The notes beneath the pieces are model-generated. The model was given only the letters and a program-made list of their open reading frames with translations. It was not told where the DNA came from and did no database searches. A stretch of DNA of 64,000 nucleotides. Origin: Cloeon dipterum (lineage: Eukaryota; Arthropoda; Insecta; Ephemeroptera; Baetidae). The stretch's first letter is position 1. Each line of letters opens with the position of its first letter. Positions 14,369 to 64,000 of this stretch are shown here, piece after piece. Where the stretch lies: contig NC_088788.1 of assembly GCF_949628265.1 (NCBI RefSeq), forward strand, positions 26,212,335-26,276,334, read 5' to 3'. Made by a program: the position numbers and the translations under genes.

Positions 14369-17300
14369 TTAATCATCTTTCTTTTTCCTCTTCTCCATTT
14401 TGCTTATGTTCCTAAAGATCTCCTTGCGCAGCGTCTTTTCCCTCTTGCTCTTCCTTGCCTCCTCCTTCTGTAGCTGGGCCCTGTGCGCGGCCATCCTGAC
14501 CGCGGTGGCCTTCTTCAGGGTCTCTTGTTTGTGCTCGAAGGTGGTCTTAAGCCGCCTCATCAGCTCATGCGCCTTTTGCTCGTGCTTCTCCAGCACAACC
14601 GCCACTCGTTGCGACTCAAGTTCCATTTTCCTCTGGTCCCTCTTCACAACCATCTTGGGCTTGTCCTCATAGGGCAGTTGCCGCTGAAGGCTTCTTGGGA
14701 TGGACAGGGGCGCTGGGGCCACTTCCTTGCGCTCGATCGGTAAGTACAGTGAGTCCAGCTGCGCCTCGTTCCTGATTCCCTTCTCCCTCTTTAATTCGCC
14801 GAGTGATTTGGCGCCCTTCCACTTGTTCTTCTGCTCGGTCGGCAGCAGCAGTGACGTCACTGGCGCGTAGAACTGAGGGATTTTCACCTGGTACCACGTG
14901 CGGCAGAAGACAATGTCGCTCAGCAGGATTCTGTCTTCGAAAGTGGCTCTGAACGAGCCTTCTGGTTTGCCCACCGCCTTTTTAATCTGGCCACGGATGC
15001 CAGACACGGTTTTTACTCTTGCTCCTTCAAATTTGGCGACCTGAAACATTTATTTTGAAATTAATCTCTTGCTTCAATATAAAAAATGTGTGCTTAAATA
15101 TAATAAAAAGGTTGCTGTAGAGAACACAGAAGATATTTTTGGGTGGTAATGTGGTAATATATTGATTTTGAGTTGTTTTAATTCAAGTAAAATAATCGGC
15201 TGCCGTCTTAAAATTTTCTGGTTTTGCTAAACACAAAATTTAGAATAGTAAATAAAGTTTTCGCATACCTCAAGACTTGAGGTGAACATTCCCTGGATGA
15301 AAGCAGTCTTCTTGTAGATCTTGAGTGGTGTTCCAACGAGCTTGAGCTTCTTCATCACCTGAGCCGATTTGTCCAGCTCAAGCACAGTGCCGGTGGCTGC
15401 GATGCGGAAGCCGGTCTGGCGCACAGACACGTCCTGCACGGCGAGGAAACCGGTGCCCTTGGGCGAGATGGGCCCCCAGAAGTGCGACAGGCAAGCCACG
15501 TGCTGCGGCGTGTACTTGAGATAACGGTTGCGCATGTTGTCCTCTTGCTTTGAATAAAGAGGCAGCGTCTGGAAGCGGCGCCAGCCGAGCGAGAAGATCA
15601 GCGGGTCCTTTGTCTTGAGGGTCTTGGAAAACCAGCGGTGGCGCTTTGTGCGGGCTTGAACGTAGCTGCAGGCAAAATTGAATGAGAGTTGCCTATTTAT
15701 TTGTATTTTCTAAAATATTCTGGATATCTATTAAAAAATGTCTAAAAGACAGCAGATTTTAGATAAACAATACTTAAAAATAACTAAATAAATTAATATC
15801 ATACACTGAATAAAAATTATTTTGTCAATATTAAGCACAAATTTTTCTCTGGTAAAAAATAGGACGTAATTTTCTTAGGTAAAATGTTGAAAAAAATTAA
15901 TAATTACACTATAAGTGATAATCATAATAACTATACGTAAAAAGACGCATAATTTAATTGCCTAAAAATGTTTTGAAAAACATTTTTTTACCCGATATTC
16001 TCCTCGCCAGGATTCAGCCCTCCAAGAATGATGGGGTACTTGGGGTCAAAATTGGTGATCATCTCGCAGGGCATGTTGGTCAACTCGACACGCACGTACA
16101 TGCCGGGGCGGTAACCCTCAAGCTGGACTCGCATCTCGTCATCCATGTGCTCAAACTCCTTCTGATTGAGCTGCGCCTGCTGGCTCATCTCCTGTTTCAG
16201 CTCGTCGTAGTAGGTTTTTCCACCATCCGTGTCATCATACTCAGCATCGAATTTCTCCTTCAGCTTCCTTTTCTTTTCGATCATCCGTTTTCTGCGCTCT
16301 TCAGGCGTCTCATCCTTTTCAGAGGGTTTGCCTAAACATTTTGCAGTAATTCAGGGCTCATTAATCAGCAAACTCAATTGTTATTTGATATGAATGTTAG
16401 AATTATTCAAAGATTGTATTCCCAAAAAAATACGAAGCCATTAGAAATTACAACTGGCTTCACTTTTTTCGTTTTAAAAATGTAATTCAACTAACCTGAT
16501 TCATGTTTCTCGCCCGTCTCAAGGTCTTCAAAGTCACCGTCTTCGTCAAGGTCGTCCATTTCTAGTAGATCGTTGGCGTCCTCCTCCTCCTTCCACTTTC
16601 CAGTCACAAAGCAGTCCCTGATCAAGTCCCGGACGTGCTCCTGCTTCCAGTCTCGCTGGTGTGTAGGGTCAGGGAAGCGAGACACATCTTCTCTGTTCCT
16701 TAGTGACCGCTCCTCCAGCTTCTGGCCCTGCGCCAAATTCACCTTGCGGAAGAGGCCACCCAGCTCTCCACCCATGTCATCTTCGTCGTCGCTGTCCTTC
16801 GCCAGGTTGCTCTCGCCATAGACTAGCTTACGCAAGCTAACTGTTGTGGCTTGTCTCTCCTGTGAGTTAAAATTATTTAAAATCGTGGGACTAATAAAGT
16901 TGTTTAAATTTAACATTGCCAATAAATATAATTCAAATAAACTCTAAATTGCGAAAGTTTGAACACCAGATTTGAGGACCCCTGGTTGATTTTGTGACAT
17001 ACAATTAAGAGATAGTTGAATTACTCTTCGTATTTCATTCAACCGACACCTAATCCTATAGGCTCATAATTTACCTGGTAGGCCAGGGCCGCTTTCTGTG
17101 CCAAGTTATCTTTCCACTTCATTGCAGAACCCTCAGCAGTATCCTCGTCACTGGCTCCTTCAAAGTCAGACATCTGGATGTCATCATCATCTTCTTCCTT
17201 AGAATTCTCCGCTTCTTGCTGAGCCTTCAGGTTGATCCTCTTTTCAGCCTGTTCGATGCTGGCCAATGCCTGTGCTACCTTGGCTCTTGTCTCCTCGTCC

Positions 17301-19644
17301 TTAGATTTGGGAGGCCTTTTGGCCACGGGGATGGGGGCTTCCACCTCGTCCTCCTCTTCCACTGGCTCATACTCGAGGTCACTAAGGTCGGACAAGCTGT
17401 CCGCGTCACTGTCCTCGCCCAGCTCCTGCAACAATTTCCTTTCTGCCAACGCAACTGAAGATTTTTTCTGCTTTTTCGCAGGCGGCGGCTCATCTACCTC
17501 ATCTCTATTGCTTTCTTGTGTCTGCCACGGAACATCCACTTTCACGCTAGTGTCCACTTTTGTCCTCAATGGGCCTGGCTTTCGCATCACTTTCTCTTTA
17601 CCGTTCAGCTTCGGAGCAACCGTCACAGTTTCTTCCTCGCTCTCCTCATCCTGTTCACTCTCTTCACTCCCCTCCTCTTCCTTTTCACTCCCATCATCCT
17701 CGTTCTCGCTTGCCTCATCTTCATTTTCACCCTCTGCGTCACTCTCCTCCTCAGCGTCTGTCCACTCGTCCTCATCTACCTTGCGACCCCAGTTGGAGGC
17801 GACGATCGCCTCCGAAGTCGAGAACAACTGCATCTGCGACATTTGCATCTTCTGGTCCATCGTCTGCTGCGTGTCCTTCATTCCGGACACCAGCTCGGTC
17901 TGCTCGTTGTCCGGCTGATGATGGAAAGAGTGGCTGCCGGCCAGCTCAACGTAGACTGCGTCCTTGTCGTACACAATGCCGCCCACCCCAGAGAACGGGG
18001 CGTAGATCAGTCGCTCCTTCTCGATGAGCACTCGCTTCTTGAGCTTGTCTGGCAGCGGACAAGGATCTGGCAAGAAAGACACATCCTTGATGGGGTGGTC
18101 GCCTGCGCCGGGGATGTGGACGCTGCTCTTCTTGTTCAGAGGTACACCACGAACCCAGCCGTAGAGACACAGCGTGCGGTCAGTCTTTTCATTCTGGCGC
18201 ACCTGAAACGAAAGGAATAAACATTATTTTACTGGTAAATTTAAACTATCACTCTGACAAAAAAAGTAGTCTTATCTAATAATCAAGTGCATTGAAAAAT
18301 CTAGAAAGTAACTTTATTTTTCGTCATTTAAGAGTAAAGGTGTTAAATTTAATGGGGGAAAATTCTTTAGTTTGAGCTGGGTTGGAGGTGGAGTTTTCAA
18401 AGAAAAGTTGCTAGTTTAGTAAGGAAGTGAAATTTTTAAAATTGCTTAAGGAGAGCAATACCAAACACTAATCACTTCCTAGCAGAAACAGCTAATAGAA
18501 AAATTCAACCTCCAACTGACGAAAGGAATTTTTCTACAGTTAATTTAGCATCATAGCTTAAAAATCATTCTTAATCGGACTAGTCATCATTCCACTACCT
18601 CCCAACTGGTTAAATTAATATATTGAAATACCCCCTTAGGTCACATAAATTTACCAATTTATATTTTCATAAAATAATCTTCTAGGAAAAATTATTTTTG
18701 CAAACGTAATTAATTTGTATTTTTTCGGTATTCCTGTTAAGTTTAAGAATGGTATTTTTCACTCACTTGCTCAGGGGGAGTAATGTCTTCAATGCGATCA
18801 GCCAGCAGGTAGGGATGGGTCGAGCGCCAGGTGAGCGGCCTAAACTTCATCACCGAGATGAACCGGCCGAGGTTCTTGATCTCGTTGCGAAGGTACTCCC
18901 CATGCACCATGCCTGAGAGGTAGAAGAGCTTAGCCCCGGCGTAGACCTCGGTCCAAAAGCGGTGCTTGAGCTGCTTCTTAGTACGCCTCATGGTCTTCAT
19001 GTTTGTGAACATGTCCAGGTGGGTCAGCACACCCATGATCCGGGGCATACCATGCACCTGGCAGATGTTGAGGAACTCGAAGATCTCCATCTCAAAGCCA
19101 AAGCTGGCGTCCACCATTAACAACACTAGGTCGGCCACCTTTGCCAGGTCGATCATCGAGTTGATATCGTTGTTACACTCGACAAAGGTGATGCGTCGCT
19201 TCTTGCCTGACACGATAGTCACAGGGCCCTGAATGCTGGACAAGGGCTTACGGGTGAAGTTGCGGATCAGGCACTGAATAAGGGTGCTCTTGCCGACCTG
19301 AATTTGGCGAATACAATATTAGAATTTGACATGACGAATTGAAACAAGCCCGAGCAAACCTTTGGAGGGCCAACCACAGCCACAAGCACTGGAGGCGGAA
19401 GAACCGGATTCCGGTCGACGACTGGAATGTGCTGCTTTTTGGTCTGAATATCCTCCTTGCGCCGGAATTGCCTCTCCGCCTTTACTGCAGAGTTGAACGT
19501 GAAGGCCTTCGGATTGCGTTGTTTTGCGGTCAAATCTTGAACGTGCGGATTTTTCTTCTTTTTCTTCTCGGCCTTGCGGCCCGCATTGCGTTCACGATGC
19601 GACTTTTTCTTGTCCAGCGCCTCGCTGAAGTCATCGCCTGCCAT
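14369..19644 (-). CDS. BMS1: Ribosome biogenesis GTPase BMS1
   Basis: Nucleolar GTPase of the U3 snoRNP/90S pre-ribosome, required for early 18S rRNA processing and 40S assembly; it works with RCL1. Exons in reading order: 19360-19644, 18767-19297, 17075-18202, 16496-16859, 15992-16331, 15269-15665, 14369-15040; all GT-AG, 1,238 residues (human about 1,280). The start [19 protein letters not shown] is followed by a basic region. The P-loop GPPKVGKST spans the first intron at about residues 92-100, and the GTPase and AARP2CN regions follow. Residues about 410-500 form an acidic D/E/S-rich segment. The C-terminal BMS1/TSR1 domain includes [26 protein letters not shown] and [11 protein letters not shown], all typical of BMS1. 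The protein ends in a basic coiled tail ([10 protein letters not shown]). It is divergent from TMEM41A across a 585 bp shared upstream region. Confidence 0.97.
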
Positions 19645-24286: not shown

Positions 24287-27200
24287 TTACTCTTGGCTCC
24301 TGCTCAATCTGTCATCAAGTATGTGCTGGATTTTGCGTACAACCGCGAGCGGTTTCTTGGGCGGAGAAACGTCCAAATTGGTACCATTGGCTTCCGCATC
24401 GTCAAGAGAAATGGTGCGCTTGCCCAGAACGGGAACTGGCGAGCTCACTAACTTGTTGATCTGCTTCAGAGTCTGCAAAACAGAACATGTCGTCATTTCC
24501 CAGCTCACAAACATTTACGTTACATTAATCGAACAATCTTTCTCATACTTACATCATTCGGGCTCCTGCTGAACAGGTACTGCAGTGTTCCTGCTGCTTT
24601 CACTGGCGAGTCTATCAAACTTGTCTTGTCCAAGGCGCTAATGTACACTTTGCTGTAACCGTTTATCTGCACCTTGGGCGACATCGGTGCTGCTTTTTGA
24701 GTGGGCAGCGGAGACAGCAACAAAGAAGACTGAAAATTCCAAATTAATCTTGGCTCCATTAATTGTTTTGAATTCTACTCACTGTGTTGGCTGAGTCTGA
24801 GAGTTTTACAGAGAAGGGCCGCATGTGCACAACGTACACAGAGTTGTAGAAGACTATGAGATCACCTCGTTCTTCAGTACCGTCCTCTGAAAAGTTAAGT
24901 CTGATGTTATAATTCATTGAAATCAGGGTTGCATACTTGAAATAGTGAGATAAATTTATTTGGAGAAAATATCAAACAATAGAAAATAAGACTGGAAATT
25001 CAGCTAATGCTGACGAGGGCAAAAGCTAGTGAGGTAATAAAATATTATATCTTAAGTTACCTCTGAGACGAAGGAGAACTTTGCGGTACACATGGGAGGC
25101 TGACTGGGGAAGGTCGCGGTAGTGGTGCATTATGGTCCTGAACTCCCTGTTCTGACTGGTCACTTTGCATATTACGTAGATGGCACACATGATCAGTTGG
25201 TCCAGGTGGCGATCTCTGAGCAGCGAGTGCGCGTGATGTGTAATAGAATACTCAAGGTTGGTCCAGATCTTCTTGAGGTCCTCCTCGCCCAGGTTCAGCA
25301 TTTTGCACAACGCCTTCAGTCTTGTAGAGGCCAGGTAGTAAAACTGCAAACAGATCAAATGTAGACGCCAGCCCAAAATTGATTCTTTTCAATTACCTTT
25401 CTAAGGAACATGGCGAGAGGGCCAGTAACCTTTGGCTTTAGGCTGTCCCTCGCAGACTGGCCTTGAATGATGACGGAGCCACCACTCTGGACGGAGATCG
25501 GTATGTATCTTTGGCCATCACCACCTTGCACTGCTGTTTAGAATAAAATGTGGATTAGCAATTTATTTAGCTAAGATCTAAAAAGATCCTGTTAAATTAG
25601 GTGACTTCGAGATGCTGTGATTTGTAATCAGGCAACTTTACCTTTTACTGAGAATTTGGGCATAGGTAAATAATTATGACCTATATTATATGAAAATTGA
25701 AATGTCTGAAATGCAGACTTGTAGCACTCTCGAGCACAGTATTATATATACAACGCATTTCAGCCATTAATAATTTTTGAGACTCACTTGTTATGTTGAT
25801 AGAGACTTTGGCACCGCTGGAGGTCGTGAGAAGACTTTGTCCAGGGCGAGTAGTAATCAAGTTCCTCATGGGAGAACCAAGGTGCGCAGTGTTTGGGTTC
25901 AGGAGCGTTTGAATGCCGTCGTCGTCAGGTAGGCGGACATCTTCATAGGTGGGCAGAGGAACTCCTATGAACTTGTTGATTTCATTCCACAGCGGACTTG
26001 ATCTCTTCCAGACCAAACTTTCCAGGATTTGTTCTTCGATCTAACATAGGCTTATTAGCAAAGAGATGGATTTAGGAGTTGTGTGACTTACAAATTGCAG
26101 ATTTTTAATTGTGCCGCGCGACATTTTGTCAAAGGTGTTGATGACCATCACTTCGATCACCTTGTAGAAGTAATAAGGTTCAAGCTCTAGAGCCTCTAGG
26201 ATCCAGGGAAACTTGCGCTGGCTGTTGTAGGAGAAAAGCACAACCTCCAAACAGCAGGCAAACAGCGCTTTTTGGCATAGCTCATTTTCCAAAACAGCCT
26301 GAAATAAATAAAGACATGGTTACTGATAGAATTTAAGACTGTTATTAAAAGTATTTTCCCAGTTTGTTATTTCATTAGTTCGCCCTAACGAAGTTCCACT
26401 TTAAAGTTTGAAAAAAAAAATCTTGAACTATCATAGCAGTACAAACAAGTAGCAAACATTTTTTTGATTTTGAAGTCCAACATGCTTTAAAGACGCATTT
26501 TTCAACAATTTTCTTTTCTGTTGAATCTGGAGACAAACTCACCGAAATTTTGTCACTGCCTTTCTTCTGTTGTTCGTCTAGAGTGGTTACTTCAAGCAGC
26601 ATGTAGAACAGGGTGGTGCCAAGCTGCAGGCGCTTTTTGGCAAACTCGATGTGCGAGCCAGGAATCTCTCTTGTCTGCTGCGTGTAGGCAAAGATGAACT
26701 GCTCGCCCATGCTGGCAATGCGAGCTTCAATGGCGGCCTGCGGATTTGATGGGCACCCCTCGAAGATTTTGATCAGTGCCGCACTTGGCTTGGAGTCCCT
26801 GCCACGCAGCATCATTTGAAGTTTGCTTACAGACTCAATGGCGGTGGAAATTGGCGAGACACGCTGGTTCGACTCCATTTTGTTCAGGTAGTGGCCAGTT
26901 AGAGGTGTCTGTAATGTTGAAAGTATTAGTGTTCTGTTGCGAATTCAATAAGCGTTTTAAATTTTGTTATGTTTGCAGGTATTACCATTTTAGCTAAAGA
27001 GTTCATGCCAGGGATGCGCAGGTTTTGCACGTAATCGTTGACTTCAAACAGTTTTGAAGGTGAACCAACCTCCAGAGTAAACTCATCCTCAGAACCTTAA
27101 AAAATCAACCCTGTTATTCAAAGTTTCCAAAATGATTAATATTGAAATAAGTTTTACCATGATATAATATGGAAAAAAATGTATGCACTAATTGCAGTCA

Positions 27201-47619: not shown

Positions 47620-50600
47620 TCACTCGTCCTCTATTGCACTGAAGCCGACATTTGTCTGAAATTTGCTCTTAAGAAGCCTCGTTTATATAAAAAAGAGGAA
47701 GATATACTCACCAGAATGAATATGTGCCCAAGGAAGGCTGGTAGCACGATAGCCCGACGTTTTTCAGCAAAGTGTTTGGTCGATTGGTATTGGCACGGTA
47801 TTCCAGGGGACTGCGAATAAGGTAGAAAATTCACCATCAAACATTTTTTTTATGACAGCAAACAAAATCTCTAGAGCAACAAGCACTGCCAATTTCGTTC
47901 CGTCTTTATCAATTTCGCCTCACTCGTGCGTGTAGCCTATTCTCCAAATAAAAACTAGGATCAAATTGCAGGCTTGCGCAACGGACATTTAAACCAATTC
48001 CAATATTCCGAATTTTCCAGATGAAAATTGCTCAAGCCTTGGATAAAAACATTCATAGAAAACCTGAATGCGTAAAAATAATCACCTGCAGGTGTTGCAA
48101 CAACTTTTTCTTTTGGCTTGCTCCATGTCAAAGGAAAACGAATTATTCATTGTCACAGCGAAAATCGAAGGCACAATATATATATAATGATGACATGCAA
48201 GAAAGGGGACAATGGGAATATATCAACTTACTGGTGCTCTTGCGTGTGCTCGTTGAGGCTGAGCTGGTCGTCGGCGAGGAATTGGCACTTGTTGCACGAG
48301 CGCTTGTTGTGCACCTTGAGTACGTGGGTGGCCAGCCGCTCCGAGCGGGCCGCCTTGTAGTCGCACAGGGCGCACACGAAGGGCTTGATGTGTGTGTTCA
48401 GGTGCCGCTTCAGGCACCAGTTATCCACGCCGGACCACGTGCAGTAGCAACACGTGTACCGCTTCTCCTTTTGTTCCTTCTGCAGGCCGTTGCTGCTTGA
48501 GCCACCCAGACCTGACACATTCTTTTTCTGCAACACGAGACATTTTGCTGAATATTTGTGTGTGGGTGTTGATCCAAAAGATTTTAAGTTCCATTAAAAT
48601 GATTTTACATTGGCTACTCCCAAGGGGAAACAAATAAGAATGGGAGATTAAAAATTGTAATAGATAAATAATATCATAAAATCAGTTTCATTAAACCCGA
48701 CATGGTTTGAATTTGAATTTATTTTCGTGTTTTTTATTTCAGCTTGCGCAAAATTTACCCATTGTACTAAATAATTTGTAAGACAAAGAAAGAAATACAC
48801 ATAATTTAGGACTTCAATTTTACTAAAATTTAAAATTCGTTTGACTTCGGCACGCAGCGCGCAAAAGTTTTATAAGTTGCAAATTTTCCCTCTTTATCAT
48901 AAATATCAAAATTGCTATTTTTCAATTTAGAGTGGAGAAATTCTTTTTTACTGGTTTATCTCTTTTGGGATTGTTGACTTTCTGATAGAAAGCAACTCGC
49001 GAGTACTTCCCGCCCAAGATTGCGAACAAAGAACATGGGCTCACGAGCCTCATTGGAGGTCCAGAAAAGGACCACATTTAACTTAAAAGATTAAACAAAA
49101 ATCATAATAATGCAGCAGGTATTTAAAAATTAAAAGCTTATCCATTCGATGTTTTGGAGAAAGATAATTTTTTGCCTACTTTTGCCACTCCGTTTTGCTG
49201 TTGAGGCTGCTGTTGTTTGGACATGTAGGCTTTGGGCTGCGGTGTTCTGATGGGCAGGTTGTAATGTGGAGTCTGCAAAAGATGGTGTTGCTGAGGCTGC
49301 AGTTGGTGCATGTGGTGCGCCTGTTGAAAGTGCTGTTGTCCTCCGCTATGGTGCTGTACCTGCAGCAGAAAGGAAGGAATGCCTTTCGTCAATCTGACGC
49401 ATTAAGTTCCTTCTGGAGAGCATTGAAAAAATTATGTTTGATGGAGTGTTGAATTTTAATTACAAATTTAGACAAGATGGGAACATCGAAAAGTGTAAAA
49501 ATATCCAAGTGCTAAATTGAAATTCTTCTTAATTTTTTTTTGCTCTTTTTATCCCTGTCCGAGGACCGGAGGACCGGGAAGGGCGCGCACTGCACTAGCA
49601 CGAATGCTGAAACCCGGGTCCCAATAACACCGCGAACGGATAACATGGGCGCACCAGGCCGCACAGGGGCCCAGCCCACTCAAGGGCCACTTGCCTCCGC
49701 ACCGAGGACTGCATTGAAACGCTAGACATTCGTCCCGTGAAGCCAAATCACGCATGCTGGAAAGGTGCAAACCAGCAAGTAGCGAGTCGGCGCCGGTGCG
49801 CCTCCAAGCCCGTTGAGCAATTTGAGCATTTCGAGTCACTAAACTAACCACTTTTTGCCATCTCTGACATTTGGGTAGCCAGTATTAGATCTCCGAACTG
49901 CTCAAATACCTCCCATTGCTTTGACTTTGACACTCCTGAGAATGCCTTAACAATGCAAGCCAACGGGCTGGTAATTTACGTGATCATTTCAAAGGATCTT
50001 GAGACACAATTACTTTTAAGCTTAACTTAATTTTTAAATTACAATGAATTTTTGAATGATTGAATATGATCATAGTAAAAATAGTCTGTCTCGCTTTTAT
50101 ACAAGCATACAACAGACAAAACTCAGTCCTGGTTTCCGAAAAAAATCCCACCTGCGGCTGCTGTTGATGCTGCTGCTGTCCAGAGGGTCTTGAGGAGGAC
50201 GGCTGCGCAGCCGAGTACTTGTGGTAATAGGACATGCCGCTGGCGTTCTTGGGCGGCGCGCGGCGGATCTTGTTGATGTCGTAGGGCTGTTCTCGGTGCA
50301 TCCGCAAAAAGTGCTTCTTGACGTGGTCGGCCCGGTTGAACTGTTTGCGGCAGATGTAGCAGTGGAATGGCTTCTCGTCCTTGTGGATGTTCTCGTGGCG
50401 GGTGAACAGATCGCGTCGGTCCGTCGCGTACGGACAGTAGCCGCAACTGTAGCGCTTCTCCGTCGTTCCGGTCAGGCTGGTGCCCCGCTCGCGGTGGCCT
50501 CCGCCTCCAGGGCCGCCTCCGGACGAACCGCCTCCATACTCGTTTTTCACGCTCTCAGCCTGCAAGCAAATCACAATTCCAAATTGAAGGTCAGGTTACT

Positions 50601-53523
50601 TTATAAGATATAAGAGACGGCCAAATTAAAAATAAACGGAATTAAAAAATCAAATTTTGAAAATTCCCCAGCTGTAGGTAGAAATTTTCCTTTTTGCTTG
50701 TATAGTCAGGAAGCGGAAATAAAAACATTCATCTCAAACTAACCAATTTTTTCAATTTCTTTAAACATCATTTCTAACTGAATTAAGTATAATTCCACAA
50801 ATTTCTGCGCGAATGGGTATAATTCAAATATTAGCTTCAACTCAACAGATAAAAATGTCAACTGTTCATCTTTTCTGGGAAAGTTTAACTATAGCCATTT
50901 CAAAAAAAACAAAAATTTTACAATGAATTCAGGAGAAAAGGTAAAAGATTTATGTCATTTTGGACGAGGCTAATTTAAATTTACACTTACGTATTTTAAA
51001 TATGGACAAAACCTTTTAAAAGGTTTTTAGGTATATCTTCAATGAATAAAGTATTACGATAAAAAAAATGTATGCTAGGGTATAAATTTGGAACCTTTGT
51101 TTTCAGTCTCTGCAGGTACTTGGTGACTTCGTCGAGCATCTCCTTCTCCTTCCACAAGGATGAGGCGACCGGCGAGGTGCGGGGGTTGCTGGTTGACTTG
51201 TTGAATCGCTCTTCGTCCCCTGGCTCGATCTTGGTCTCGACCTCGTCAGCGCCGCTGCTACCCTCACCCATGTGCTGCTTGGCCACGTGCATTCGCACGG
51301 TGCGCGCCATGCCGCTCGTGAACTGACACTGCGGACACTGGTACATGCTCATGTTGCCGTGCGTCGATATCCAGTGGTCGGCGATGCGCCCCAAAACGCC
51401 ACTGCAGTCACACTCAGAGCATTTGAAGGCCCGCTGCGCGGGGTTGTAGGTGGCGATTTTGCTGCGCGTCCAGTTCAGCTCATCGTCGCTCGCGAACCAC
51501 CTGAAAAAATGAACGAATGAGCGATAATTCACGGGGAGAATCTTCTTTTAAAGAAAGGCAAAGGCTAAATATTATAGATTTCTCATTTTGGCACGCTGCA
51601 TAAAAATTACATTATTTGAAATGGTTCAGAAAATTGAACTAACGTGTTTTTTTATTTGTTTTGGCCAAATATATAGTTGTTGCAAATAAAAAAATTTTCC
51701 TTCTCAATTCGAATGCAGGACAGTGGTGAGTTTTTATTTTTTAGATTTATTTTTAAGTTGAAAATATGGAAATGAAATTTACCTGTCTACATGTGCAGCG
51801 GCCTGTTCGCTCGCCTGAGGCGCTGGAGGTATATTGATGGGCAGTTGGTTGTGTTGAGGGTGCGTCTGGTTTTGGTACTGGTTCTGGCCTCCATTAGCAG
51901 TGCCAGGATAGCCAGTCGAGTTCATTGCGGCCACAGCTGGTTGGAAGTTGGTCTGCATGAGCGCTATACTAAAGGCAGCAAGGGCATCCTCCTGAAACAA
52001 AAAAAGTTCATTTGAAAACATACATGCAATTTTCTGTGGAATAATAAATATTTTTTATCGGTTCATCTTTTGAGATGAATGAACCCCTGAACAGCGAAAA
52101 CTCCGCGTCCCAATAACATCGCGAACGAATAACATGGGTGAACTAGCCTCATTGGAGGAAGCCCAGTCCAGAAAAGGACCAGCTGAACTGGGGTCTTTCA
52201 TTGCAACGCTAGAAAAAAATTCACGCATTCTGGATAGGTGCAAACCAGCAAAAAGCGAGTCGGAAAGCTTTCGCCATCCTGCCAAAACGGAATGGACTCG
52301 TCACTGCAGTGACAAGAGTTAAACGTAGGCCCAAACATTGCTCGGATTCTCAAATTGCAAGTGCATGCGCTCAACAATGCGAGCCAATGGCTTGGTTAAC
52401 TTCATTAACTATAGCCGTTTAATCTTGGAAAAATTGTTGTTTCTTCTAGTTATTTCTATTTCTTTTTTACCATCTTTAAATGATTTGATTGGTTCCATGA
52501 ATTTCCTTGCGTGTGAAATTGGAATTTAAGCCTATTTTTTTTAGATATATTTACAGTGGCTATTTGCACCCATAAATCAGGAAAAAATGAGGAATGGGTG
52601 ACTACGAGTGAATCAAATTGAAGAGAAAAATCAAATCACACGCTTTTGTACTTTCGAGCAAACTGTTAGACTCCGCAGGCCTATATATCAATACTTAACT
52701 TAACCGTAAAAAATTCTTCGCTGCAGATTTCTGAACAGCGGTCGTTGAAAACATCCGACAGCACCTGCACCTGAGCTTGAAAAGAGAAACAGATAACGAA
52801 AAATTTGTCAACCCCCGCCGCTTGCCCTCTATGCAAGAAAACTCCCTCTTCATTTAAAAAATAAATCTTGTTTATCACCAGCTGTCAAAGCGCGGACAGC
52901 CAACACATGCACAGAAAGCATCAAAACTTAAAGGGGAAATAAAAATTTTAATAACATTAACTTAATTGCTAAATGCGACTCTGTCTCTTTTCGGGCTTCT
53001 GTAATTTAGTATTATTTTTTTAAAAAAATTATTGGGCACTCTACAATCGAAGAATATTTTTGGGCATCCCAATTTTACCTGTTTCAAATCTCGGGCAATG
53101 CTTTTACTGTAACGATTCTAGTACAACATATAATCTTAATCTGCATTGAATTACGCGTTTTCTTAAGAATGCAGTGTACCAAGATGATAAAAAGACGCAT
53201 CCCTCATTCTCTCTTCACAAGCTGCGCATCCCATCAGATACGCAGGTAGAATACAGCACCTCATAGGCATAGGTGCATTTTTTTAAAAGGAACATTGGAC
53301 ATACCTTAATAAAAGGAGCGGTGAGGGTTTGCTCCTCGGCGTACCGGTTGCGGTTATCAACCCCGCTCGGCGCCGAGGTGGTGATAGGCGTCGTTGTCGA
53401 GGACCCAGCGTTCGGCGCCGCCGAGCTGGTGGCCAACGCATCCTCACTCGTGCCGTACAGCTTTCGTGTGATTTCCTTGAACATGTCTTCATAGGAGTCC
53501 ATCGGCACCGCCCCTGAATCCAT
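47620..53523 (-). CDS. chn: Charlatan-type C2H2 zinc-finger transcription factor
   Basis: Nuclear C2H2 protein; in Drosophila, charlatan regulates proneural genes in sensory-organ development and is compared functionally with REST/NRSF. Exons in reading order: 53305-53523, 52705-52770, 51783-51991, 51095-51500, 50152-50559, 49180-49359, 48232-48527, 47712-47810 and a very short end exon (about 47620-47638); about 633 residues. The N-terminus has SYEDMFKEITRKLYG, almost identical to fly chn. Seven fingers are present: two in exon 4 (about 190-241), two in exon 5 (about 337-388; TDRRDLFTRHENIHKDEKPF, FNRADHVKKHFLRMHRE), and three in exon 7 (about 520-595; LKRHLNTHIKPFVC, DYKAARSERLATHVLKVHNK). 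Gly- and Gln-rich linkers separate them. The first seven exons are secure. Exon 8 fits phase and splice sites only, and the terminal acceptor is ambiguous: every option ends within about 15 residues. Confidence 0.9.
49010..49077 (+). repeat. Dispersed repeat, fragment C (in chn intron)
   Basis: A 60-70 base fragment sharing GAACATGGG, AGCCTCATTGGAGG and CCAGAAAAGGACCA with the longer repeat copy at about 52070-52405. It lies in the chn intron between exons 6 and 7. Confidence 0.55.
49555..49975 (+). repeat. Dispersed repeat, copy 1 (in chn intron)
   Basis: Shares an ordered series of blocks with copy 2: CCAATAACA..CGCGAACG, ATAACATGGG, AACGCTAGA, TCACGCAT.CTGGA, AGGTGCAAACCAGCAA, AGCGAGTCGG and, near the end, AACAATGC.AGCCAA. 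The surrounding GC content is higher than in the intron. Same orientation as the other copies. I see no coding capacity or terminal inverted repeats; a SINE or non-autonomous element is possible. Confidence 0.65.
52070..52405 (+). repeat. Dispersed repeat, copy 2 (in chn intron)
   Basis: Second long copy of the same family, in the chn intron between exons 2 and 3. It shares the block order given for copy 1 and, in addition, the AGCCTCATTGGAGG and CCAGAAAAGGACCA blocks with fragment C. Divergence between copies looks substantial (roughly a quarter of positions), so insertion was not recent. Confidence 0.65.
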
Positions 53524-61300: not shown

Positions 61301-61709
61301 ATCATCAATTTAATAATTCAGAGCACTGGTTTATATTACAATTTTGGCTAATCCCAAGTCTCGTCAGCAAACCTGGCTATTAAAATACCAACAAGTCGAC
61401 CACATCTGCGTGAAGACCAAAGAATATTTTCTAAGGTGCAAGCAAGGCTCGTTCACAGCCCTAACTGGTTTTCTCTGTTTTTGACTCCTCGGCAGCAATT
61501 TATAAAACTTCTCTTAACGACAGCTAGTTTCCTTTCATTTAAAAAAAATAATTATCAACACAATGAAATACATTGGCTGAGGCGGTTTTTCGCCAGAGGG
61601 TTGATGAGTCAGTTTGGACCTTAAAATAGCAAAAATTGCCGGCCTTTTAAGTTGATTTTATGTTAAATTTATAAAGGCTGAGTTTCTCAAGACTGAATTT
61701 TCATAAAAG
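53595..61709. other. Gene-free region upstream of charlatan with GC-rich islands
   Basis: About 8 kb with no recognisable gene on either strand. GC-rich islands lie at about 54340-54860, 56000-56700, 57930-58260 and 59890-60640, separated by AT-rich DNA. Open frames inside them (up to about 226 codons at 59897-60577) are Arg/Pro/Ser-rich, overlap on both strands and have no domains, as expected from GC-rich non-coding DNA. The most plausible role is upstream exons, promoters and enhancers of chn, whose coding start exon has a splice acceptor facing this region. Confidence 0.5.
58269..58335 (+). repeat. (GA)n microsatellite, about 33 units
   Basis: Uninterrupted GA dinucleotide run of about 67 bases. 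In insects, GAGA runs can be bound by GAGA factor; here it sits beside a GC-rich island upstream of chn. Length is likely to vary between individuals. Confidence 0.97.
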
Positions 61710-62556
61710 GAGCAGTTATTTGCGAGATTGGAGGTCGATTGGACGCGATTTTTCAGCGTTGAAATTTTTAGGTGGCAGTCATATTTGCTTAAAGTACTTG
61801 TTAATAGAAGGTGAAATTCCAAATTTGAAGCTCGGGAATGGGGGCGTTCCCTATTTTTTCGGTATCTCAAAAATACCCGAAAAACGAATTCAGTTAATGA
61901 ATTCTAAACTGCAACTCTTGACTGCGTTGAGGTATCACCTTGAAATTTTCACTGCCTAACCTAGTTTTTAATCCTGAACAACTTTTGCATTTGCAAAAAA
62001 TTCGCAGGTCGAAGGTCAAGGTCACCTTTTGCGACCTTTTTTTGAAAATTCAAAATTAAGGGATGATAGCCCCCTACGATTTTTTTGGGGTTCAGGGCTG
62101 AAATGTAGCCCGTGAAATTCTGCACAAGTACACCAAGTTTCATAGGTGCAATCGCGATACTTTTGCTGCAATTTGAATTTGAAGTTTGAAAACCTGCTCG
62201 AGGCCGCTTGACCGCGCATGCACTCAGAGCGGCGAGTTCGCCTCTCGTTCTTCGAGTTGATTTTTTTCGCATTTCACTTGCTTAGAAACACCAAGAGGGC
62301 CTAGGGTAGACCAATGAAGGTCGAAATCGACCTTCAGGGTCTGTCCCTGACGTGACCCTGAGATAAAAAATTTCGAAAATTTCCAATTTCATCGAACTTA
62401 GTGTCTTTTTATAGGTTTTCACCCCTGTACAGCTCAAATATACAGCCAAAATTGCTGAATTATAATCCTGAAACCGGTTCTTGAAGTAATTGTGGTAGCC
62501 ATTCATCCAGACGTGATGTGCAAAATGGTCAAAATTTTAAAATCTTTAATTTATGA
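61710..62556 (+). repeat. Long inverted repeat, left arm (847 bp)
   Basis: Reverse complement of 62842-63689 with only a handful of differences: single-base changes around 62415 and 62467 and small changes around 62355-62400. The arm begins GAGCAGTTATTTGCG. It contains TCAAGGTCA (62016-62024) and a 22-base palindrome (62315-62336, 10-base arms built on AGGTCGA). The 103-codon frame at 61961-62272 (minus) recurs in the other arm but has no features of a real protein. Confidence 0.95.
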
Positions 62557-62841
62557 TTTGATTCTTCTGTTTAGTACACACAAAGTTCATATTGAGTGTT
62601 AAAAATTAACGATTGTTTTTTTAAAAAAAAAAGTTTAAAAATTTATGTAGAGCAAATAACAAATGAATTACATGTTTAAAATTTTTTATTTGAAAAAGAA
62701 AGGAAACACAAATTTTTGGTTTTTAAAAGTGGCTTATTTGCCAGTGCATTTAATAACATTTTTTCATAGTATTAAGCATAAGATCCTTTATTATTAACAC
62801 ACATATTATGAACTTCATGTGTGCAAAATAGAAGCATCTTT
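62557..62841. repeat. Spacer of the long inverted repeat
   Basis: The 285-base AT-rich loop between the two arms. Its outer 40 bases on each side still resemble each other in inverted orientation (CACACAAAGTTCAT on the left against ATGAACTTCATGTGTG on the right), so the inverted symmetry continues inwards with more decay. No coding segment. Confidence 0.8.
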
Positions 62842-63689
62842 TCATAAATTAAAGATTTTAAAATTTTGACCATTTTGCACATCACGTCTGGATGAATGGC
62901 TACCACAATTACTTCAAGAACCGGTTTCAGGATTATAATTCGGCAATTTTGGCTGTATATTTGAGCTGTACAGGGATGAAAACCTATAAAAAGACACTTA
63001 AGTTCGATGAAATTGGAAATTTTCGTAATTTTTTATCTCAGGGTCACGTCAGGGACAGACCCTGAAGGTCGATTTCGACCTTCATTGGTCTACCCTAGGC
63101 CCTCTTGGTGTTTCTAAGCAAGTGAAATGCGAAAAAAATCAACTCGAAGAACGAGAGGCGAACTCGCCGCTCTGAGTGCATGCGCGGTCAAGCGGCCTCG
63201 AGCAGGTTTTCAAACTTCAAATTCAAATTGCAGCAAAAGTATCGCGATTGCACCTATGAAACTTGGTGTACTTGTGCAGAATTTCACGGGCTACATTTCA
63301 GCCCTGAACCCCAAAAAAATCGTAGGGGGCTATCATCCCTTAATTTTGAATTTTCAAAAAAAGGTCGCAAAAGGTGACCTTGACCTTCGACCTGCGAATT
63401 TTTTGCAAATGCAAAAGTTGTTCAGGATTAAAAACTAGGTTAGGCAGTGAAAATTTCAAGGTGATACCTCAACGCAGTCAAGAGTTGCAGTTTAGAATTC
63501 ATTAACTGAATTCGTTTTTCGGGTATTTTTGAGATACCGAAAAAATAGGGAACGCCCCCATTCCCGAGCTTCAAATTTGGAATTTCACCTTCTATTAACA
63601 AGTACTTTAAGCAAATATGACTGCCACCTAAAAATTTCAACGCTGAAAAATCGCGTCCAATCGACCTCCAATCTCGCAAATAACTGCTC
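62842..63689 (-). repeat. Long inverted repeat, right arm (848 bp)
   Basis: Mirror copy of the left arm, ending ...AACTGCTC at 63689. It carries the same nuclear-receptor-like site (TGACCTTGA, 63375-63383) and the same palindrome (63063-63084). The flanks directly outside the arms are AAAG on both sides (61706-61709 and 63690-63693), a possible 4-base target-site duplication, though so short and A-rich that chance cannot be excluded. Confidence 0.95.
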
Positions 63690-64000
63690 AAAGAGAATCA
63701 AAATTTTCAAGGAAAGTCATTTGAATTTAATTTAAAGCCCTATAGTTAACAAGAAAAAAACGAATATTTCCAATCACTGAAAATGCGAATTAATCGCAAA
63801 AAATTCCTACGTAATTTTGTTTCAATACACCTAAACCGCGTACAACGTACAAAACGTTCATATTTCTTGTTGTAAAATCGTTTAGCAATGTCCAAACAAT
63901 AATTAACAATCCAAAGCCACTAAAAACAAACTAATTTAAGCTATTATTTGCTGATAGTATCTAATTATACTAGTTTAAATATTGTATTTTACAATTCACT
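63690..64000. other. AT-rich right edge of the window
   Basis: About 310 bases of AT-rich DNA beyond the inverted repeat. I see no gene, repeat or motif. Confidence 0.6.

Follow-up and report, generated by a model that had tools for sequence, protein, structure and literature searches.

The window analyzed here is a 64,000-nucleotide stretch of the Cloeon dipterum genome (contig NC_088788.1, positions 26,212,335 to 26,276,334). On its minus strand, frames of a BMS1-like ribosome-biogenesis GTPase occupy positions 14369 to 19243, with matches to the RIBIOP_C, AARP2CN, and GTP-binding domains. A frame matching the retinoblastoma-associated A domain lies at 26375 to 26878 (minus strand), and two minus-strand frames at 49984 to 51532 match C2H2 zinc fingers weakly, without reaching the curated cut-offs. 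Near the right-hand end of the window lies a long inverted repeat. Its left arm (61710 to 62556, plus strand; 847 bases) and right arm (62842 to 63689, minus strand; 848 bases) enclose a loop of 285 bases (62557 to 62841), and the palindrome runs on, decayed, into the edges of this loop. Three substitutions (62373, 62422, and 62456) and one 1-base indel (62400) separate the arms; all differences fall within 62373 to 62456, and the outermost 663 bases are identical. Toward the loop, 62400 to 62599 pairs with 62799 to 62998 at 93%. The word AAAG is located directly outside both ends (61706 to 61709 and 63690 to 63693). Arm mapping thus confirmed the initial annotation, which had described a near-perfect inverted repeat with 847-bp arms, a handful of arm differences, a 285-bp loop into which the symmetry decays, and AAAG on both flanks. 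A scan of the window for other inverted repeats (seed of 12) reported none with a length of 60 bases or more, and no Rfam match reached the gathering threshold between 60001 and 64000. A chance origin of the repeat is excluded by arm length alone and by the copies found elsewhere.

The genome searched comprised 190.1 Mb in 10 contigs (C1 to C5, 33 to 43 Mb each) with approximately 40% G+C. When the left arm served as the query, at least 41 matches were obtained with the best 40 of 529 first-look candidates scored, and the best other copies reached 97 to 98%. In 26 of the 41 cases, the matches paired up, giving 13 close pairs in opposite orientation. The conserved 17-base terminus GAGCAGTTATTTGCGAG (61710 to 61726, plus strand; counterpart at 63673 to 63689, minus strand) was matched 159 times (81 + 78) with at most one mismatch, against two matches (1 + 1) for the reversed pattern used as a control. 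Forty-nine sequence-distinct two-ended copies were extracted, the window copy included, and 39 of them carried an exact 4-bp target-site duplication (TSD). Sequence-identical copies were left out of this set, namely repeat extractions of one and the same place and two real insertions, L023 (GTCT) and the second element at L032 (CGAG), both with exact duplications. Exact 4-bp duplications therefore flank 41 of the 51 two-ended insertions, whereas approximately 0.5 would be expected from base frequencies. The other 10 lack an exact 4-bp match. By eye, two of these share 5 bp instead of 4 (L027 and L063), five have a duplication off by one base (L014, L018, L038, L042, and L060), and three have flanks that do not fit a 4-bp duplication (L040, L064, and L066). 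Thirty-two different words occur among the 39 exact copies, TTAA only once, and these 39 duplications indicate an AT-rich insertion target with a weak, symmetric preference.

Terminal inverted repeats (TIRs) common to dispersed sites, a duplication of fixed length, and no transposase of its own are the features of a non-autonomous class II TIR transposon, and all three were observed here. As an alternative, the initial annotation had offered a recent inverted duplication. A single local event of this kind, involving no mobile element, would account for the near-identical arms and for the lack of any other long inverted repeat reported in the window, but it is refuted by the exact-ended dispersed copies. 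With 159 matches to the terminus across the genome and with exact 4-bp duplications of their own at 41 of 51 insertions, which is what the proposed search of the arms and comparison of ends returned, its probability is vanishingly small. The inverted repeat in the window is a copy of a mobile element, neither a local inverted duplication nor an assembly fold-over. It very probably represents one copy of a family of non-autonomous cut-and-paste-type (TIR) DNA transposons with very long TIRs; the suggestion of a large non-autonomous element with such TIRs was borne out by the dispersed copies and the AAAG duplications. This palindromic family, referred to as GAGCAG, is real, recently active, and non-autonomous, with dozens of copies in the genome. 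No published description of it was recognized in a search of the literature, Repbase and Dfam sequences lying outside the comparison. The GAGCAG family is regarded as a new family of a known kind, and absence from print is not claimed.

That the family has moved recently follows from identical copies occupying different sites. L022 and L023 are identical over all 1973 bases, although they lie 12.7 Mb apart on C2 and are flanked by different duplications (CAAT versus GTCT). At L032, two elements approximately 440 bases apart show no difference over 1967 bases, and their duplications are TGAT and CGAG; this adjacent pair suggests a local jump or a targeted insertion. The left arms of L022, L026, and L028, at three places on two contigs, are identical over 760 bases, and at least one arm pair free of differences was found in each of L037/L041, L042/L063, and L013/L014.

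Ten of the 49 copies fall outside a length of 1900 to 2000 bp. Five (L020, L039, L040, L045, and L060) are palindromic nearly or entirely from end to end (86 to 97% self-complementary), three (L030, L036, and L055) lack a large part of one arm, L035 is a rearranged copy, and L066 contains in its center a copy of a second palindromic family. A special DNA hairpin near arm position 530, close to the breaks in L066 and L035, was considered and found to be unsupported (z of -0.21). In addition, 20 loci with no partner end among the listed terminal matches were re-examined at up to three mismatches; both ends were present in 11 and only one end in 9. Four loci (L052, L054, L059, and L061) are one-arm copies in the assembly, and all break at arm positions 760 to 773. 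By eye, the second end of L052 is reduced to CTGCTC, after which the duplicated AAGT comes directly. The short palindrome AACCGGTT (arm positions 763 to 770) lies at or adjoining the break in these four copies. Since palindromes may mislead assemblers, the nine one-ended loci, with four breaking at nearly the same arm position, could be read as signs of an assembly fold-over artefact. However, fold-over does not produce two-armed copies with differing side flanks and direct duplications, and as an explanation of the inverted repeat it is extremely improbable.

The arms of the mobile element were compared across the family. Arm statistics were based on 39 of the 49 copies, those of 1900 to 2000 bp, and exclude the 10 copies of other lengths, L023, and the second L032 element. 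The median arm difference was 1.9% within an element versus 6.0% between elements. A maximum-likelihood tree was built by a quick method from the first 760 bases of all 78 arms. In it, the arms of 23 of the 39 copies were sisters to each other, 4 of these with support below 80, and those of the other 16 were not. Of 182 element-private alleles, 79 were present on both arms and 103 on one arm; unsampled relatives could make some of these alleles inherited, but agreement between arms still requires copying somewhere in their history. Private alleles shared by both arms became fewer toward the loop, with both-to-one ratios of 24:23 at arm positions 1 to 300, 43:30 at 301 to 600, 9:18 at 601 to 760, and 3:32 at 761 to 847. 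L033 and L038 show 15 fixed differences in 760 bases at which both arms agree, and one arm-specific difference. Furthermore, identical stretches with internal edges were found in L013/L014, L027, and L031: L013/L014 differ at 71 to 261 and next only at 691 or 791, and L031 is identical over 1 to 643.

Arm similarity, private alleles on both arms, and tract edges are all predicted by gene conversion between arms. These patterns support the view that arm-to-arm conversion keeps the outer arms alike, as the initial annotation had guessed, and the drop in both-arm private alleles toward the loop agrees with its remark that the outer arms are better conserved than the loop edges. Counting against conversion are the 16 of 39 elements with non-sister arms and the 103 of 182 private alleles confined to a single arm. 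Alternatively, the arms may be homogenized during transposition, each new copy being rebuilt from a single arm by hairpin copying rather than by repair-type conversion. One-arm copying of this kind could leave conversion-like traces, near end-to-end palindromes do exist, and in L031, L033, L038, and the window copy the arms are identical over the first 600 columns while differing by at least 2% from the nearest element. However, differences between left and right arm have been retained in the recent copies L022, L023, L026, and L028, so the two arms move as a unit, and the internal edges in L013/L014 and L031 resemble those of conversion tracts. In the arm tree, moreover, L021, L022, L024, L026, L027, and L028 group left arms with left and right arms with right, a pattern that fits transposition of the element as a whole. 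Hairpin copying is thus distinctly unlikely, and gene conversion remains the favored reading.

The coding content of the window element was examined by scanning all 14 of its stop-to-stop frames of at least 50 aa, the longest being 106 aa, against Pfam. None of the 14 gave a match above the cut-off; the best sub-threshold match was DUF5947 (17.6 bits against a cut-off of 25), and TelK_N and Tf2-1_C also matched below the cut-off. As no transposase match was found in these frames, the element is probably moved in trans. An autonomous partner was sought among the termini listed, that is, 100 of the 159 matches together with the position-12 variants (all 50 terminal matches in which position 12 is not T were listed), and no pair of ends spanning a transposase was present among them. 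The longer spans between termini corresponded to L032 (two adjacent identical copies), L035 (rearranged), and L066 (holding the second family). In L035, 5 of 14 frames of at least 60 aa were scanned and had no Pfam match at an E value of 1. Eight matches were obtained with a terminus pattern altered at position 15, and two of them make up a 1.5-kb pair.

For the placement of the element among known transposons, the length of the duplication counted against several types, since 4-bp duplications disfavor P/Galileo, MULE, TTAA, and TA elements. Drosophila Foldback (FB) elements have arms built from short tandem repeats and generate a 9-bp TSD, with which the 4-bp duplications here disagree. In the arms of the window element, no long tandem array was detected, only arrays of 21 to 27 bases at a low score threshold. 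Galileo, a Foldback-like element, resembles the window element in its very long TIRs, its near-identical arms within a copy, and the existence of a TIR-only copy. One report gives 959-bp TIRs that are 99.9% identical within a copy, a copy made up of TIRs alone, these being very long, a TSD of 7 to 8 bp, a P-type transposase, and, in some copies, TIRs extended by tandem repeats (PMC4168063). Although the architecture is alike, the duplications here are 4 bp instead of the 7 to 8 bp of Galileo, and the arms are devoid of long tandem arrays; membership in the P superfamily was rejected on the TSD length, and a Drosophila-type Foldback or Galileo element is very improbable. The label foldback-type in the initial annotation therefore holds for the architecture and fails for the family. 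By analogy, the window element may work like a long-TIR non-autonomous element of the Foldback/Galileo type.

Two further superfamilies share one feature each with the window element. MULEs can have long TIRs, but their TSD is described as 7 to 12 bp (PMC10741241), in contrast to 4 bp here, and MULE membership was rejected on this ground. For Ginger, the same source lists a TSD of 4 to 6 bp, a range that covers the 4 bp found here, along with TG...CA termini and TIRs of 40 to 270 bp (PMC10741241); the termini here are GAG...CTC and the TIRs are about 850 bases, and Ginger was rejected because of its TG...CA termini. The TTAA or TA duplications of piggyBac and Tc1-mariner do not agree with 32 words in 39 copies. 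Sola, whose termini begin with GAG, is the best superfamily candidate because 4-bp duplications and long TIRs fit, and it is regarded as a lead and not as membership. The likeness is to non-autonomous derivatives of Sola (Sola1/Sola2). Autonomous Sola elements encode a DDD transposase; among the termini listed, no autonomous partner of the window element was found. In published accounts of this superfamily, Sola elements have a 4-bp TSD and TIRs of 11 to 1124 bp (PMC10741241), and the TSDs of amoebozoan Sola2 elements are AT-rich and 4 bp long (PMC3627910).

The interior of L066 led to a second palindromic family. This interior had at least 76 genome matches, with the best 40 of 1962 first-look candidates scored. 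Members are approximately 1.68 kb long with a short loop and GTGTGTGTTC termini, for example, G000:C4:21872641-21874318 (within L066), L069, and L070. The terminus GTGTGTGTTCRGGAGTCTTTTAAGGG was matched 43 + 47 times with at most one mismatch, and its control 0 + 0 times. Exact 4-bp duplications were found in 12 of 12 two-armed copies examined, with ends GTGTGTGTTC...GAACACACAC; these were 10 copies chosen from the L066-interior matches plus L069 and L070. The copy nested in L066 is without a 4-bp duplication; it lies centrally in the GAGCAG element (L066:308-3053), and its flanks are mirror images and not duplicated. A pair of second-family ends 8.9 kb apart (C2:7976140-7985057) was considered as an autonomous element and rejected, as its mirror-image flanks mark an inverted duplication. 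The whole region (C2:7976100-7985090, L091 to L093) is a large inverted duplication and not one element. Within the middle 3 kb of the 8.9-kb span, 2 of 11 frames of at least 60 aa were scanned, and neither had a Pfam match.

The two families share a block of sequence. Arm positions 237 to 410 of the window element (61946 to 62119, plus strand; second copy at 63280 to 63453, minus strand) align collinearly with positions 233 to 405 of the second family, at 65% over 178 columns and 65.4 bits, compared with 34.0 for the best of 500 dinucleotide shuffles and 29.7 for the best of 72 window pieces. Inside this block lies the motif AAGGTCAAGGTCAC (62012 to 62025, plus strand, and 63374 to 63387, minus strand), which occurs 597 times in the genome versus 4 times for the reversed pattern. 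The motif resembles TCAAGGTCA, an orphan-nuclear-receptor site. A rather unlikely but broader proposal is that the GAGCAG and GTGTGTGTTC families are branches of one unrecognized lineage of palindromic transposons. Such a lineage would have a 4-bp stagger, a conserved block approximately 240 to 410 bases inside each end as a putative internal binding site for a transposase or a host factor, and arm-to-arm copying built into its life cycle that would renew the ends.

For the GAGCAG family itself, a transposase encoded elsewhere would bind the termini and move the whole element, and insertion would take place in AT-rich DNA with a stagger of 4 bp. The arms may fold or break between transpositions and be repaired from each other via gene conversion. 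This process would keep the outer arms alike and let the loop decay, and the repair might sometimes give rise to loop-less palindromes or one-arm deletion derivatives.

Together with the second family, the GAGCAG family makes it possible to study arm-to-arm gene conversion in chromosomal palindromes on clean natural data: conversion can be read in each copy, and both tract edges and a gradient toward the loop are visible. That the two families have kept a common block suggests a functional site deep inside the TIR. In addition, palindromic elements of this kind are a potential genomic source of hairpins, deletions, and mis-assembly.
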